Assembly: GCA_015484595.1 (NCBI GenBank)
Contig: WFMM01000053.1
Span: 1 to 55,733 of the forward strand
Direction of reading: 5' to 3'
DNA length: 55,733 nucleotides
From: Nitrospirota bacterium
GTDB taxonomy: Bacteria > Nitrospirota > Thermodesulfovibrionia > Thermodesulfovibrionales > JdFR-85
The position numbers were made by a program, and so were the translations under genes. Below the pieces are notes generated by a model that made no database searches, had not been told where the DNA came from, and was given only the letters and a program-made list of their open reading frames with translations. Below are positions 1 to 6,936 of this stretch, one piece after another (position 1 is the stretch's first letter; every line of letters begins with the position of its first letter).

Positions 1-2487
1 AGAGAGATAGACCAAAAAACTATCCGTCGTCTCATACTGGTTGACACGAAACAGGCTGACAGACTTGGCCCAATGGCTGAACTGGCAAGGTCAAGGGAGA
101 TAAAAATACACATCTACGACCATCATCCCTTCACAGCAGACGACCTGAGGGGTGAACTGGAGGTGGTTGAAGAGGTAGGTGCCACGACTACCATCTTTGT
201 TGAGTTAATCAGGGAAAAGAGGATACCCCTTAGCCCTGAAGAGGCAACAGTGATGTGTCTTGGTATTTACGAGGAGACAGGCTCTCTCCGTTTCCCCTCC
301 ACCACCGAAAGAGACCTGATGGCAGTGGCCTATCTGCTTAAGAAGGGGGCAGACCTCAGGGTGGTATCCAGATTCATCAGGCTTGAGATGAGCAGAGAGG
401 AACTTGAGCTTCTAAACGAACTGATCAGATCCTCAAGAGACATTGACCTTTATGGACTGAGAATCCGAATCGTTAAGGCCACCCACGACGAGTATCTTGG
501 TGATGCTGCTTACATAGCTCACAGGATAATGGAGATGGAAGACATTGACGCACTATTTATGCTTTTACTGATGGAAGGGAAAATCCTTATCGTTGGCAGG
601 AGCAGGGTTCCAGAGGTGGATGTTGCTTCGGTGCTTGAAAGGTTTGGCGGTGGAGGGCATCCAGTGGCAGCCTCAGCAAGCGTTAAGGAAGGAAGCCTTG
701 AGTTAGTGGAAGAAGAGCTCACCAGGATAATAAACCAGACCGTAAGGCCTGAAAGACAGGCAAAGGACATAATGACCTCACCGGTTATAACCATTTCACA
801 CAACACCACCATAAAGGAAGCTGAACTGATTATGACCCGCTATGGAGTCAATGTGCTTCCTGTGCTTAGGAATGGAAAGTACTTTGGTCTGCTTTCTCGT
901 GAGGTGGTTGAGAAGGCCCTGCTTCATGGCTTTGGAAAAAGCAGGGTTGAGGAGTTTGCAACCACCGATGCTGAAACAACCACGCCAGAGAGGCCGGTTG
1001 AGGAGGTAGAGCAGATAATGATAGAAAAAAATCAGCGTTTCATGCCTGTGCTGAAAGACCAGGAGGTAGTCGGTGCTATCACGAGAACAGACCTTTTAAG
1101 AAACATATACGAGGAGACCCTGAGAAGAAGGCGGATTTCAGAGGAGCATCGGCAGGAAAAGCCCTCCATGGGAAGGAACATAAGGCGATTAATCGAGGAG
1201 CGGTTCCCAGGGGAGGTGGTTGAGATACTTAAGAAGGCAGGTGAGGTGGCTGAAAGGCTTTCCTTCAGGGCCTATCTGGTGGGTGGCTCGGTAAGGGACC
1301 TGCTCAGAGGTGAAAGGAATCTTGATATCGACATAGTGGTGGAGGGAGATGGCATTGAGTTTGCCAGGGCACTCTCTGAGGAGTTCTCTGACGCAAAGCT
1401 CCTTACCCATCGGAGGTTTAACACTGCAAAGCTAAGGGTTAACAGCCTGACCATTGACATTGCAACTGCACGCACCGAGTACTACGAAAAACCTGCCTCC
1501 CTGCCAAAGGTGGAGGTGTCTTCCATAAAGAAGGACCTCTATCGCAGAGACTTCACGATCAATACCCTTGCGGTAGCCCTGAACCCGGGGAGGTTTGGAC
1601 AGCTTCTGGATTACTTTGGCGGTCAAAGGGACCTTAAGGAGCGGACCATTCGGGTGCTTCACAACCTGAGCTTCGTTGAGGACCCCACAAGGGCATTCAG
1701 GGCTGTAAGGTTTGCCGAACGGTTTGGCTTCAGGATAAGTAAGCACACCGAAAAACTGATAAAGTCTGCCCTTCGACTCAGGCTCTTTGAAAGGCTTTCA
1801 GGAACAAGGATATTTGACGAACTCACCCTCACCTTTAAGGAGACTGACCCTGTGGCAGCAATAAAAAGGATGTCAGAGTACGGGCTGCTTTCTGTTATAC
1901 ATCCCGAGCTTAGGTTTACCGATGAACTCAGGGACAGACTCAACGCAATCCACGAGGCACTTATATGGTTTGACCTTCTGTTTTTAGAGGACAGGGTTGA
2001 CAGGGCAAAGGTCTTTATTATGGGGCTTCTTTCTGTGCTTGACAGAGAACAGAGGGCTCAGGCTTTAAAAAGATTGAGCACCCCTGACAAAGAGGCAGAA
2101 AGGATACTTAAGGCAATGGACGAAACCCTCAGGGCAATCAGGACCATCAGGCCCGACGACCCTGTGAGTGTTTATCGGACGCTTTCAGGACTTGCTACAG
2201 AGACCCTCCTTTTTCTCATGGCTGTATCAGGTAAGAGGCTTATACAGAAGGCCATCTCAGATTATCTCCTGAAACTACGGTATGTAAAACCCCTGACAGG
2301 AGGAGAAGACCTGAAAAGGCTTGGAATTAAACCAGGCCCTGTTTACTCTGAGATTCTCAATGCCCTTTTAGATGAAAGGCTCAGGGGAAATCTAAAGACC
2401 AGAGAAGAGGAGTTAGAGTTTGTAAAACGTTATGTAAACAGTCATGGAAAAGAGCTTTCCGGATTATCTGAAAAGATATCTTCCTGA
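1..2487 (+). CDS. tRNA nucleotidyltransferase (CCA- or A-adding) with DHH and CBS domains, 5' truncated
   Basis: The frame is open from the first base, so the true start lies upstream; 828 codons are present. A DHH phosphoesterase part comes first (IYDHH near residue 40, a GGGGH motif near 215). A tandem CBS pair follows (about 245-365). Then comes a class II polymerase-beta-type nucleotidyltransferase head with LVGGSVRDLL near 424 and the metal-binding DIDIVVEGDG near 442, followed by the RNA-binding helical domain. This DHH-CBS-PAP order is known from long bacterial enzymes such as the Aquifex A-adding enzyme. The family adds CCA, or only the terminal A, to tRNA 3' ends; the sequence alone does not decide which. 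The 3' end overlaps the RNA ligase gene by 44 nt, suggesting co-translation. Confidence 0.93.
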   Translation, partial: REIDQKTIRRLILVDTKQADRLGPMAELARSREIKIHIYDHHPFTADDLRGELEVVEEVGATTTIFVELIREKRIPLSPEEATVMCLGIYEETGSLRFPSTTERDLMAVAYLLKKGADLRVVSRFIRLEMSREELELLNELIRSSRDIDLYGLRIRIVKATHDEYLGDAAYIAHRIMEMEDIDALFMLLLMEGKILIVGRSRVPEVDVASVLERFGGGGHPVAASASVKEGSLELVEEELTRIINQTVRPERQAKDIMTSPVITISHNTTIKEAELIMTRYGVNVLPVLRNGKYFGLLSREVVEKALLHGFGKSRVEEFATTDAETTTPERPVEEVEQIMIEKNQRFMPVLKDQEVVGAITRTDLLRNIYEETLRRRRISEEHRQEKPSMGRNIRRLIEERFPGEVVEILKKAGEVAERLSFRAYLVGGSVRDLLRGERNLDIDIVVEGDGIEFARALSEEFSDAKLLTHRRFNTAKLRVNSLTIDIATARTEYYEKPASLPKVEVSSIKKDLYRRDFTINTLAVALNPGRFGQLLDYFGGQRDLKERTIRVLHNLSFVEDPTRAFRAVRFAERFGFRISKHTEKLIKSALRLRLFERLSGTRIFDELTLTFKETDPVAAIKRMSEYGLLSVIHPELRFTDELRDRLNAIHEALIWFDLLFLEDRVDRAKVFIMGLLSVLDREQRAQALKRLSTPDKEAERILKAMDETLRAIRTIRPDDPVSVYRTLSGLATETLLFLMAVSGKRLIQKAISDYLLKLRYVKPLTGGEDLKRLGIKPGPVYSEILNALLDERLRGNLKTREEELEFVKRYVNSHGKELSGLSEKISS

Positions 2488-3550
2488 AAACAGAATAAAC
2501 AGTGACAACCTTCAGTCACTTCAGTATGAGGGGCTACAGTATTTTCGCCTTAAAAAGGACATCTCGGGTTATCCAAGAGGAACGGTCTTTACCGAGGGTG
2601 CCTTAGTGCAGGGATACCAACGAATAAAGAGGATACTTGCACTTAAGGAAGGGATAAGACGGTACATAAAAGGTGAGTTCTATGTTGAAGAAAAGATGGA
2701 TGGCTACAATGTGAGGATTAAAAGGATAAAAGACAGGGTTTACACCTTCACGAGAGGAGGTTTTATCTGTCCCTTCACAATGGACAGGCTTGAGGATTTT
2801 ATCAGTCTGAGTTTCTTTGAGAGATACCCTGACCTTACCCTCTGTGCAGAGGTGGTGGGCCCTGAAAACCCCTACAACTCTGAGCCTGCACCTTACATTA
2901 AAGAAGACATAGCCTTTTTCGTATTCGATGTAAAAGACCCAGCTGGAAGGAGCCTTCCGCTTCCTGAGAGATACAGTATCTACGAAGACCAGTCCCTCAA
3001 TTCTGTGAAAAGGTGGGGGCCCTTTACCCTTAAGGACACAGAAAAAATAAAGGACATCATCAGAGAGCTCGACAGCCTTCAAAGAGAGGGCATAGTCATA
3101 AAGGATATCCATGCAAGGGAAGAGTTAAAATATGTTACCCCTGGCTCTTGCATTCGCGACATAAGGGCCACTGCACATCTGATACCAGAGATACCAGGTG
3201 GATTCTACATCCAGAGGCTTATCAGGCTTGCCATGACATTAAGGGAGTTTGGAATCCCCTTAAGTGAAAGCCTCTTTGTCGAAACTGGCAGGGCACTTTT
3301 AGAGCCCTTTAACGAAAGCCTTGAGGCAGTGGAGAATGCCGAAAGGATAAAAGAGGTATTCCGTATCAGGGTAAACAGAAAGGAGACCATAGACAGGCTC
3401 TTTCATCATTTAAAGAAGACAGGAATAAGTGCAAAGCTCATATCGGTTGAAAAAGAAAAGGACAAATACAGGGTAACCTTCACAAGGACCTTTCCAAAGG
3501 GCACAAAACTCTTGAGGCGCGCACTGAGGGGCTATGGTTTTTATGACTAA
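2444..3550 (+). CDS. ATP-dependent RNA ligase, Pab1020/Rnl3 family
   Basis: A 368-residue protein with the nucleotidyltransferase-superfamily ligase motifs in order: motif I EEKMDGYNVR with the predicted AMP-accepting Lys84, motif III FFVFDVKD near 158, motif IV REGIVIK near 214-220 and motif V ELKYV near 229. The C-terminal helical extension matches the homodimeric Rnl3 group, known mainly from archaea (the Methanothermobacter enzyme joins and circularises RNA). The ATG lies inside the tRNA nucleotidyltransferase gene (44-nt overlap), so translation is probably coupled. The convergent neighbour is the PIN protein that usually accompanies this ligase family. The natural substrate is unknown; RNA or tRNA repair is an inference from context. 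Confidence 0.9.
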   Translation: MEKSFPDYLKRYLPENRINSDNLQSLQYEGLQYFRLKKDISGYPRGTVFTEGALVQGYQRIKRILALKEGIRRYIKGEFYVEEKMDGYNVRIKRIKDRVYTFTRGGFICPFTMDRLEDFISLSFFERYPDLTLCAEVVGPENPYNSEPAPYIKEDIAFFVFDVKDPAGRSLPLPERYSIYEDQSLNSVKRWGPFTLKDTEKIKDIIRELDSLQREGIVIKDIHAREELKYVTPGSCIRDIRATAHLIPEIPGGFYIQRLIRLAMTLREFGIPLSESLFVETGRALLEPFNESLEAVENAERIKEVFRIRVNRKETIDRLFHHLKKTGISAKLISVEKEKDKYRVTFTRTFPKGTKLLRRALRGYGFYD

Positions 3551-4182
3551 ACCCCTGCCTTTGCCTTTTTGATTGCACTGAGGAGATAATCTCTGAACTT
3601 CTCAGGGAAAAGCCACTTGATTCCCAGTTTCTCAGCCCACTTTATGACGCCCTGGTCTGCCGTTACAAGCAATGCGTCAAGCTCTCTGGCAAGAAGTATC
3701 AGGTCAACATCCTCTTTGGAGTCAATAATTCCCTCCCTCAGTGCCTCACGATACTTCTTTCTTAAATCCTTTATCACCTGAGAGGTGTCCTTTTTGCCGC
3801 TGTCTCTTACCGCTGTTTCAGCAACCCTGAGGCCCTTGTTTATCCTGTTTCGGATGTCCTCAATCAGCTCGTAAAGCAGAAAGGCAGGAAACATTAACTC
3901 ATATCTGCTTGGGGGTTTTTGATGAAGGATTATCAGGAGGTCTCCAGGTATCCTTTCTCTGTCTATAAAGTTCAGAAGTTCCTTGAATATAGAGGGAGGC
4001 ATGTAAAACTCAAGTATGGGTATCTGGGCTGCAAGAAAAAGAAAACCCTCCAGTGCCTCGGTGGGGTTGTCACCAAAGTACTTTCTTACATCAGGATTTA
4101 CAAACAGACTGGTATCAAGAACAACCCTGCCAATCCTTGGTGGTTTTAGCTGACTGTCATACAGATTACTCTTTTTTATCAA
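3547..4182 (-). CDS. RNA ligase partner protein, PIN-domain putative ribonuclease (MJ_0950 type)
   Basis: About 211 residues with PIN nuclease features: VVLDTSLF supplies the first acidic residue, PSIFKELL the Glu, EDVDLILLARELDA the third acid and LLVTADQGVIKWAEKLG the fourth, so the active site looks complete. This is the family known to travel with Pab1020 RNA ligases, and here it converges on the ligase gene with a 4-nt stop-codon overlap (CTAA). The start is uncertain. The TTG at 4182 gives the usual family length and a 17-nt overlap with the upstream TPR gene; a GTG at 4272 would add 30 residues and overlap by over 100 nt. The family role is unproven; cutting RNA that the ligase then seals is a hypothesis. 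Confidence 0.82.
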   Translation of the reverse strand: MIKKSNLYDSQLKPPRIGRVVLDTSLFVNPDVRKYFGDNPTEALEGFLFLAAQIPILEFYMPPSIFKELLNFIDRERIPGDLLIILHQKPPSRYELMFPAFLLYELIEDIRNRINKGLRVAETAVRDSGKKDTSQVIKDLRKKYREALREGIIDSKEDVDLILLARELDALLVTADQGVIKWAEKLGIKWLFPEKFRDYLLSAIKKAKAGV

Positions 4183-5485
4183 CTTTACAGGTTCCGTAAA
4201 GATTGAATGTAAAGGTGTTCCACTCTTTGCAGGATGGACACCTTGCTGAGTATTTATCTCCAATGTATCCACAACTGTTACAGCAATAGGGTATCTTCAG
4301 GATAGAGCCAATGTTAAGGGTATCTATAAACTCCTGTGAAGCCCTGTCGTACTGGCCACGCTTGTGGAAAATCATACCTTTCATCATTGAAATCTCAGAC
4401 GACAGATTGGGGTCATCAATGCTTTCCAGGGTTTCAAGTGCATCATCAAGCATCTCTAACCTGTAGTAAAGCTTGGCAAGAAGGAACTTCATGGTGCTGT
4501 CAGCACCTGAGGCTATTGCATCCTGATAGATGTTTATAATCCTTGAGGGGTCTCCCCTCTTAAGCAGTAACTCCTCAAGCCTTGCAGCAAGCACCAGAGA
4601 GCCCTGTCGTTTAAAGACATCTTCAAGGTAGTTAATTGCCTCATCCTGACGGTTTTCCCTGAGCATTATCTTAGCTATGGCAAGATGAGCAGGCACAAAG
4701 GAGTCGTCCTGTTTGAGTAACGACCTGAGCCCCTTTGAGGCCCTGTCAAACTGGGCTTTATCTGCTATCTCTCTATACAGTTCAAAACTGTATCCCCTAA
4801 GACGCTCTTCAATGGCCCTTTTCTGTCCCTCATCATTAACCTTCTTAAGCAGTGCCCTGTGTAGCTCCACAAGCTCTTCCCATCTGTTAAGGCTGTCAAG
4901 GATTTCACACTTTTTGTAAAGGGCTCTAAGGTTGTCGGGGTCCTCCTTAAGCACATCGTTTATCAGATTGAGTGCCTCCTCGGTATTACCCTGCCTTGTC
5001 TTTATCTCTGCTAACTGAAAAAGCAGATAGGCGGTCTCACCTTCCATACCAAGGGCCTTCCTGAAATAGTTTTCTGCCTTAGGAAGCTCTCCCCTCTCAA
5101 GGTATAGCTCTCCTAACCTTATAAGGGCCTCCCGATTGTTTTCATCCTCAGCTGTTATCTCCTTTAGCAGGGAGATCGCCTGCTCTGTCTTTCCTGCATT
5201 CAGCGCGGAACTCGCCTCTGAAAAGAGTCTCTGAAGCTTTCTGTGTTTCTTCTGGCGTCTTTTTGTCTGAAGGGAGTTAAAGAACCTCTTTGTATCCCTT
5301 ACTGCGTATATGGCAAAAACAAAGACAGCCCCGAGGCCAAAGGATATAAGCATCAGCAGTATCTTTGAAACCTGGTAGAAGGTGTTTTCAGAGAGATAGA
5401 CATCAACCACCTCACGATTGTAGATGGCAAGGTAACCTGCTGCCACAACGAAAAGAAACAGTAAAAAGGCCGTAAACTTACTCAT
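4166..5485 (-). CDS. LapA-LapB-like membrane TPR protein with C-terminal rubredoxin-like zinc ribbon
   Basis: 439 residues. Two N-terminal hydrophobic helices (about 4-22 and 38-62) separated by YNREVVDVYLS resemble the small membrane protein LapA (DUF1049). A basic linker and a run of tetratricopeptide repeats (about 85-390) follow. The protein ends in a four-cysteine ribbon (CNSCG...CPSC near 405-425), as in LapB/YciM. In enterobacteria LapA and LapB are separate neighbouring genes, and LapB guides FtsH-dependent turnover of LpxC to control LPS synthesis. Here both modules lie in one chain. The ATG overlaps the rlmH stop (ATGA). The LPS role is inferred from domain order only. Confidence 0.75.
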   Translation of the reverse strand: MSKFTAFLLFLFVVAAGYLAIYNREVVDVYLSENTFYQVSKILLMLISFGLGAVFVFAIYAVRDTKRFFNSLQTKRRQKKHRKLQRLFSEASSALNAGKTEQAISLLKEITAEDENNREALIRLGELYLERGELPKAENYFRKALGMEGETAYLLFQLAEIKTRQGNTEEALNLINDVLKEDPDNLRALYKKCEILDSLNRWEELVELHRALLKKVNDEGQKRAIEERLRGYSFELYREIADKAQFDRASKGLRSLLKQDDSFVPAHLAIAKIMLRENRQDEAINYLEDVFKRQGSLVLAARLEELLLKRGDPSRIINIYQDAIASGADSTMKFLLAKLYYRLEMLDDALETLESIDDPNLSSEISMMKGMIFHKRGQYDRASQEFIDTLNIGSILKIPYCCNSCGYIGDKYSARCPSCKEWNTFTFNLYGTCKVDKKE

Positions 5486-5925
5486 CAGTGATGATACCTC
5501 ATTCCTTTCTTTATTGTTATTGCCCTGTAAATCTGCTCCAAGAGCACGAGACGGGCAAGCTCATGGGTCATGGTCATGGGTGAAAGAGAGATTATGTCCA
5601 TTGCCCTTTGCTCAACCTCCTTTGATACCCCAAAGGGACCGCCTATAACCATTACTGCTCTATCCACTGAAAAGAGATACTCGGAAAACTCCAGAGAGTT
5701 CATAAGCCTTCCCTTTTCGGAAAGCAAAATGTACTCAGGGGCTTTCCTTAAGATCCTTTCAGCCTCTCTGAGCCTTGCCCTTTCTGAGTCCTTACCCTTT
5801 TCCTCCTTTAACTCTATCACCTCTAAGCTCAGGAATCTCTTTATGAGCCCTGTGTACTTCTTAATACCTTCCCTTACAAAGGGTTCCTTTGTCCTGCCAA
5901 CCCAGAGGATGCTAATCTTTCTCAA
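5485..5925 (-). CDS. rlmH: 23S rRNA (pseudouridine-1915-N3)-methyltransferase RlmH
   Basis: 146 residues, normal length for this SPOUT methyltransferase. The family signature VIGGPFGVS (about 93-101) and the C-terminal SAM-knot segment SPMTMTHELARLVLLEQIYR (about 114-133) are intact, ending in the typical KGMRYHH tail. RlmH methylates the pseudouridine of helix 69 on assembled 70S ribosomes. The start is a TTG inside the end of rsfS, a 14-nt overlap. The rsfS-rlmH order is widely conserved and supports both calls. Confidence 0.95.
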   Translation of the reverse strand: MRKISILWVGRTKEPFVREGIKKYTGLIKRFLSLEVIELKEEKGKDSERARLREAERILRKAPEYILLSEKGRLMNSLEFSEYLFSVDRAVMVIGGPFGVSKEVEQRAMDIISLSPMTMTHELARLVLLEQIYRAITIKKGMRYHH

Positions 5926-6259
5926 AATCTATCCTCGGGGCGTCTATCCAGAGCTTTTCGATCTGGTAATAATCTCTTGTCTCCTCCTCAAAAACATGCA
6001 CGATCACATCTGCAAAATCCAACAAAACCCACTTGCTGAAGTTGTATCCTTCAACTGAGGAGGGTCTGATACCCTTTTTTTTCATCTCTTCTTCTATGTA
6101 ATCGACTATGGCTCTTACCTGTGTGGTGCTTTCACCTGAACACACTACAAAGTAATCGGTGATTATAGAGAGATGCTTGAGCTCAAGGACCTCTATGTCC
6201 TTTGCTTTTTTCTCTTTAGCTAATTTTACTATAAACTCTGCCTTCCTGATACTTTCTAT
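5912..6259 (-). CDS. rsfS: ribosomal silencing factor RsfS (Iojap family), non-canonical start
   Basis: The C-terminal part is typical RsfS: ITDYFVVCSG, VEGYNFSKWVLLDFADVIVHVF and the terminal YYQIEKLW. RsfS binds ribosomal protein L14 and blocks subunit joining in starvation. The reading frame extends upstream with good homology (IRKAEFIVKLAKEKKAKD) but has no ATG, GTG or TTG before residue 39 of this model. The first usual start, a GTG at 6145, would delete the conserved N-terminus. The ATA at 6259, ten nucleotides after a GGGGG run and just past the nadD stop, gives 115 residues, the expected size. An AUA or AUU start coupled to nadD, or a base error, are the alternatives. Confidence 0.85.
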   Translation of the reverse strand: MESIRKAEFIVKLAKEKKAKDIEVLELKHLSIITDYFVVCSGESTTQVRAIVDYIEEEMKKKGIRPSSVEGYNFSKWVLLDFADVIVHVFEEETRDYYQIEKLWIDAPRIDFEKD

Positions 6260-6279: not shown

Positions 6280-6936
6280 TCAGTCTCTGTACAATCCTTT
6301 AGAAATTATATATGATTCTACTGATTCAGGCAACAGGTATTTTATACTTCCCCCCTTTTTTATAAGATTTCTTATCTCGGAAGCTGATATGTTTAGCCCC
6401 ATAACGGGAAGCACATAGAGGGTCCGTCCACTGGTAAGCTCAAACCTCTTTATCCCCTTTTCTGTCTTTTCAGAGCCCTTTACGATGTATGGTGAGCTGT
6501 AAATCTCCGAGATGTCGTGGGTGGGTCTGTTGACAACTGCTATATCCGTAAGTCTGATAACTTCCTCAGGTCTGTACCAGAGCGTAAGCTCAAGAAACGA
6601 ATCAATTCCCATTATGAAGACAGACCCCTTACCCAAACCAGGGGTCTCCTCTATCTCCCTCAGGGTATAAACCGTATAAGAAGGCCCCTTTCTCCTTAAC
6701 TCGATCTCGGAAAGCTCGAAGCAGGGATTTCCCTTGATGGCCATCTTTACCATCTGGAGTCTGTCATCGGCACCAGCCACATCCTCCTTCTTCAGGGGAG
6801 GAATGGAGGAGGGGATAAAAAGAATCTTTTTTAAGGAAAGTCTCTGTCTAACCTCCTCAGCAAGCCTAAGATGACCAAAGTGGATGGGATTAAAGGTGCC
6901 ACCAAAGATTCCTATCTGCGGTTTATGGTTGCTCAA
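6280..6936 (-). CDS. nadD: nicotinate-nucleotide adenylyltransferase NadD
   Basis: 218 residues with the nucleotidyltransferase alpha/beta signature GIFGGTFNPIHFGH (about 9-22) and the C-terminal ISASEIR motif that stands for the family ISSTxIR. NadD adenylates nicotinate mononucleotide to deamido-NAD in NAD synthesis. The start is a TTG (SNHKPQIGIFGG). The gene lies 14 nt downstream of the ferredoxin and immediately upstream of rsfS, the usual nadD-rsfS-rlmH order, so these genes are likely co-transcribed. Confidence 0.95.
   Translation of the reverse strand: MSNHKPQIGIFGGTFNPIHFGHLRLAEEVRQRLSLKKILFIPSSIPPLKKEDVAGADDRLQMVKMAIKGNPCFELSEIELRRKGPSYTVYTLREIEETPGLGKGSVFIMGIDSFLELTLWYRPEEVIRLTDIAVVNRPTHDISEIYSSPYIVKGSEKTEKGIKRFELTSGRTLYVLPVMGLNISASEIRNLIKKGGSIKYLLPESVESYIISKGLYRD

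Follow-up and report, generated by a model that had tools for sequence, protein, structure and literature searches.

Do the three genes that open this stretch of DNA encode one machine for cutting, trimming and sealing tRNA? The window, i.e. the whole stretch of 55,733 nucleotides analysed here (contig WFMM01000053.1 of a Nitrospirota bacterium), begins with the overlapping genes of a tRNA nucleotidyltransferase, an RNA ligase of the Rnl3 type and a PIN-domain protein. An earlier note on this DNA had joined them into a possible module for cutting, trimming and sealing tRNA or other RNA. We show that the pairing of the ligase with the PIN protein is real and that the enzymes look active, whereas gene order is weak evidence for such a module in the window's family. 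The PIN protein is treated below as a HARP, a protein-only RNase P. Rnl3 co-occurs with HARP; about 80% of the bacterial cases are co-localised, usually on opposite strands, every ligase genome has a HARP and 89% of the overall HARP set carry the ligase (Seshadri & Gopalan, mBio 2025, PMC12153264). The pairing and hypotheses for it are already published there, and the coupling of this ligase family with a PIN partner, which the earlier note had called known, is indeed widely conserved. Among the papers searched, none mentions both 'Rnl3' and 'tRNA nucleotidyltransferase'.

The nucleotidyltransferase gene (1..2487, plus strand) is truncated at its 5' end by the contig edge and by profile matches encodes a DHH-DHHA1-CBS-CBS-PolyA_pol fusion that is probably A-adding. 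Its last 44 nt (2444..2487) overlap the plus-strand ligase gene (2444..3550, 368 aa), which converges on the HARP gene (3547..4182, minus strand) with a stop overlap of 4 nt (3547..3550). Both overlaps are as first described. The mechanical open reading frame of HARP opens at a GTG at 4272; the conserved protein fits a TTG at 4182, in line with the end coordinate of the earlier note, and has 211 aa. On the minus strand follow the genes of a LapB-like TPR protein (4166..5485, profile matches) and of RlmH (5485..5925), RsfS (5912..6145) and NadD (6280..6936), the last three named from their translations. The order nadD-rsfS-rlmH-lapB-HARP is kept in relatives, with the ligase present or absent. 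The three-gene arrangement is real and no chance pattern, and the family scores lie far above the cut-offs.

The PIN protein reaches 201 bits against both PF08745 (cut-off 27, E=1.4e-59) and TIGR03875 (cut-off 95). Its best solved matches are all entitled 'RNA-free ribonuclease P' (7e8k, E=4.5e-65; 7e8j; 8kd9; 7f3e), and it agrees with known HARPs in family, length and all catalytic aspartates, PbHARP (7e8k) being the nearest solved chain. The four acidic residues noticed earlier are confirmed as D23, D154, D158 and D176, which in a chain alignment correspond to what we take to be D7, D138, D142 and D160 of Aq880. D154, D158 and D176 are present in 53/53 HARP loci and D23 in 52/53, with one gap. 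Mutants of PbHARP revealed that three aspartates and six arginines matter, R108, R116, R123, R138, R142 and R146 being needed for binding or cleavage of pre-tRNA (PMC9051087). Our own alignment maps these arginines to R111, R119, R126, R141, R145 and R149, all of them conserved in the 53 loci apart from R126, variable in 10. The family match, the RNA-free RNase P structures and the functional residues together identify the PIN protein, as far as sequence can tell, as HARP, an intact protein-only RNase P. HARPs are oligomeric. Bacterial members cleave the 5' leaders of pre-tRNA (PMC9051087, PMC10652100), so that the earlier statement that no substrate is established has to be corrected for the PIN partner. 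As a side observation, the HARP of one surveyed locus (L065:2085-2654) matches the crystallised PbHARP residue for residue wherever the two align; a ligase gene adjoins it, and the PbHARP structural model thus has a natural ligase partner.

The ligase matches the Rnl3 family over its full length (TIGR01209, 334 bits, cut-off 137), matches PF09414 and PF18330 (Lig_C, E=2.9e-22) as well, and has PAB1020 as its closest structural relative (2vug, E=4.6e-83). The motifs regarded as functional in the earlier note, Lys84 (EEKMDGYN), EGIVIK and LKYVT, are all in place and practically invariant. The nucleotidyl lysine and the residues of motifs III, IIIa, IV and V are there: K84, E136, E215, K220 and K229 occur in 79/79 relatives and D162 in 78/79, although the scan that yielded these loci itself relied in part on patterns for motif I and the RGGF motif. 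Judged by its residues, the protein is a genuine Rnl3 in which no ligase motif is missing, and the predicted Rnl3 activity is likely. By analogy with PAB1020 and MthRnl it would join 5'-phosphate and 3'-hydroxyl ends of RNA in an ATP-dependent manner. The window's enzyme differs from these two in being a bacterial member and in sitting behind a tRNA nucleotidyltransferase gene. The archaeal MthRnl joins a 5'-phosphate to a 3'-hydroxyl and moreover takes off a single 3'-terminal adenosine, for which its authors proposed tRNA CCA as target (PMC5599603). An archaeal Rnl3 is required for circular C/D box sRNAs; the knockout had no growth phenotype under the conditions tested, and tRNA-intron and rRNA-intermediate circles were unaffected (PMC9014305).

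Among 217 Nitrospirota genomes the ligase is found in 15, and all 15 possess HARP (counted over the family's cut-off). In the reverse direction the association is loose: 38 of the 53 Nitrospirota HARP genomes, near-closed genomes among them, have no ligase, in contrast to the 89% with ligase in the published set. HARP thus works without the ligase, and cooperation of the two cannot be essential. A wider survey covered 80 ligase loci; they belong to Nitrospirota, Aquificota, Planctomycetota, Deltaproteobacteria and archaea, outside the Gammaproteobacteria and the haloarchaea. HARP adjoins the ligase in 52 of them, in several phyla, on the opposite strand and convergently; about half of these 52 show stop-end overlaps of 4-39 nt, which recur in other phyla. 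Ligase and HARP trees are correlated (r=0.89; shuffled maximum 0.17), partly as a result of shared lineage history. The window has in common with the published pair the adjacent genes, the opposite strands and a ligase found only with HARP; it differs in the extra overlapping nucleotidyltransferase gene, which is confined to one family.

RNase P RNA and HARP nearly exclude each other in the phylum. The RNA is missing in 51/53 HARP genomes, where HARP is the only RNase P found, and present in 159/164 genomes without HARP. One genome rated 100% complete (G146) yielded neither HARP nor RNase P RNA nor RnpA, which reflects an assembly gap or something else. The two HARP genomes with RNase P RNA are the window's genome (G000) and its family member G190. 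Ligase loci led to six further genomes of the family type that carry the RNA too, plus one outside the family. The window's genome has a complete class A RNase P RNA (G000:C90:1265-1737, L142) and an rnpA cut by a contig edge (G000:C97:4-201, L143). Contamination as the origin of this RNA was rejected, since the gene neighbours on C90 and C97 are common to G190 and the six further genomes carry the RNA as well. The bacterium of the window has both types of RNase P. In this it differs from Aquifex and most other Nitrospirota with HARP, which do without the RNA.

RNase P RNA was not found in three other members of the window's family, G107, G122 and G156. In these, rpmH and yidD are spaced by 2-97 nt with no rnpA between them (L151, L152, L153); the gap of about 330 nt in G190 (L154) holds an RnpA match. 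The near-exclusion and the missing rnpA indicate that HARP can take over the duty of RNase P. In a three-protein tree G122 joins the G190 clade (98%), and G107 and G156 pair up in another part of the tree (100%), the basal node being weak. Since HARP-only members thus fall into separate clades, the RNA-based enzyme was likely lost at least twice in the family, if both forms are ancestral. HARP can therefore stand alone in the window's family, and the ligase is kept with or without RNA-based RNase P. This amounts to a natural experiment: among close relatives that share this HARP-Rnl3 locus, some retain RNase P RNA and rnpA and others have lost them, so that a ligase-linked role of HARP can be told apart from plain tRNA maturation. 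It bears on what bacterial Rnl3 joins and on the task of HARP in cells equipped with the RNA enzyme as well.

The nucleotidyltransferase lies directly upstream of the ligase in 10 genomes (G000, G107, G122, G156, G190, L039, L040, L041, L042, L044), each belonging to the window's family or clustering with it. They represent at least four genera, and the overlaps are 4-53 nt where measured; the two proteins are probably made from one message. The link proposed in the earlier note therefore holds within this family. It fails outside: in 10 other ligase-bearing Nitrospirota genomes the gene is present elsewhere and not beside the ligase, and none of the surveyed ligase loci of other groups shows the adjacency. 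Thus, the neighbourhood survey that the note had suggested finds HARP as a recurrent neighbour and the nucleotidyltransferase in the window's family only, and the latter is not to be taken as a general part of the HARP-Rnl3 system. The gene upstream of the ligase varies by lineage: judged from the sequences, it is for instance purQ-like in Aquificota, and in a different Nitrospirota family it is mobB-like and follows topA. Across the order, the commoner upstream neighbour of the nucleotidyltransferase is a gene for a GGDEF-type regulator (GGEEF motif in the sequence), and this is the older neighbour. Most simply, a single rearrangement in the ancestor of the family would have joined a GGDEF-nucleotidyltransferase block to a ligase-HARP block. 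The block from the nucleotidyltransferase to nadD stays together throughout the window's family; because all of it is syntenic, kept adjacency alone is no evidence of joint function. In this locus the nucleotidyltransferase is probably a housekeeping neighbour rather than a partner.

Which nucleotidyltransferase it is can be narrowed down. The incomplete gene product scores 783 bits against NF041569, below the cut-off of 1440, and matches PF01743 (104 bits), PF00571 (twice) and PF12627; its nearest solved chains are 3h37 and the Aquifex-type 4wby/1vfg. It retains the flexible loop. Four relatives (G107, G122, G156, G190) have a second, short enzyme without this loop (open frames of 388-432 aa), and a missing flexible loop is a hallmark of bacterial CC-adding enzymes (PMC7014341). 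The ligase-linked enzyme is therefore probably the A-adding half of a split CCA system of the Aquifex type. A difference from that system is that the short partner was not found beside the long one in the window's own assembly (96% complete, 170 contigs). In the window's family a T-arm pattern with encoded CCA has 35-47 matches per genome (0-2 with a reversed-pattern control). Because most tRNA genes of the family encode CCA, the linked enzyme mainly does end repair. HARP prefers CCA-less pre-tRNA 10-fold in vitro (PMC10652100); that this preference accounts for the linkage was rejected for the window's family in view of its many encoded-CCA sites. Across the order such sites are fewer in HARP-only genomes (median 27 vs 38, p=0.003, uncorrected for kinship), and one Thermodesulfovibrio-like family has only 3-6 per genome. 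Family f6 genomes (e.g. G047, G052, G079), which are HARP-only and ligase-less, have 3-6 encoded-CCA pattern sites, as compared to about 20-47 in most of the phylum.

The explanation that we favour, and consider somewhat more likely than not, is that HARP and Rnl3 act as a pair that trims and seals, to which the nucleotidyltransferase became attached by rearrangement. The sequence shows an intact HARP gene that closes a housekeeping gene cluster, with an intact Rnl3 gene converging on it. Cleavage by RNase P enzymes gives the tRNA a 5'-phosphate and leaves the leader with a 3'-hydroxyl. A cut by HARP would yield the same, exactly the ends that Rnl3 joins, so that sealing would need no end-healing enzymes. 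The pair may trim and then seal small structured RNAs, circularising or re-joining them; alternatively, Rnl3 may undo mistaken HARP cuts. In genomes without RNA-based RNase P, HARP would also serve routine tRNA 5' maturation, a task that does not call for the ligase. The nucleotidyltransferase would be a housekeeping enzyme that adds the A in a split CCA system, and the ancestral rearrangement would have placed the ligase behind it. Counted against the pair are that convergent HARP and ligase genes share no promoter, that we know of no substrate for bacterial Rnl3, and that C/D box sRNAs are, to our knowledge, absent from bacteria. RNase P activity is moreover missing in some recombinant bacterial HARPs (PMC12153264). 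Trimming and sealing of some structured RNA is nevertheless the best reading and comes near to a model already proposed (PMC12153264).

It is unlikely that the two enzymes do not cooperate at all, with HARP serving tRNA 5' maturation and the ligase general RNA repair, both retained for similar reasons such as harsh habitats and adjacent through co-transfer. This possibility is named in PMC12153264; most Nitrospirota HARP genomes indeed lack the ligase, and congruent trees are expected of a co-inherited cassette. However, the ligase never occurs without HARP here (15/15), and the convergent side-by-side arrangement turns up in several phyla amid unrelated genomic surroundings, which exceeds what a shared habitat predicts. 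We are more doubtful still of a trio for tRNA end quality control, in which HARP would produce or inspect the 5' end, Rnl3 would take off the terminal A or put broken tRNA back together, and the A-adding enzyme would rebuild the 3' end, perhaps with its DHH domain healing a 2',3'-cyclic phosphate. The overlapping genes in several genera, the abundance of encoded CCA, which leaves repair as the enzyme's main task, and the coupling of the loop-bearing rather than the loop-deleted enzyme suit it, and the adenosine removal by MthRnl makes a loop with an A-adding enzyme conceivable. Against this stand the restriction to one family with the enzyme unlinked in other ligase genomes, the synteny of the whole block, and the archaeal knockout without growth defect or effect on tRNA-intron and rRNA-intermediate circles. 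Furthermore, MthRnl leaves a cyclic phosphate, which a nucleotidyltransferase should not extend directly, so that healing would have to come first. In its fullest form, which strikes us as a long shot, a single tRNA end-surveillance machine of the window's family would have Rnl3 strip CCA of its last A, an activity that MthRnl shows on model RNAs, or seal nicked tRNAs, and a co-translated A-adding enzyme with a DHH phosphoesterase domain restore the end; if true, this would let the cell switch tRNA off reversibly, beside a second RNase P. A toxin-antitoxin system, with HARP as VapC-like toxin and the ligase as antidote that re-seals its cuts, is scarcely credible. The PIN fold and the two adjacent genes invite the idea, which was raised in PMC12153264. 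HARP is, however, encoded among housekeeping genes and is the sole RNase P found in 51 genomes, and 38 of 53 HARP genomes contain the supposed toxin without its antitoxin, whereas a toxin gene normally comes with one; unguarded HARP is evidently tolerated.

Two further observations were made at the surveyed loci. Many anammox planctomycetes encode a TrkA_N-DHH-DHHA1 protein of about 490 aa divergently beside the ligase (L072:8091-9584, L073:8194-9666 and other Brocadiales loci). Upstream of one Aquificota ligase-HARP pair, a gyrA-like gene (L117:5506-9087) seems to hold an intein, its product having 1194 aa as compared to 780 aa in two siblings.
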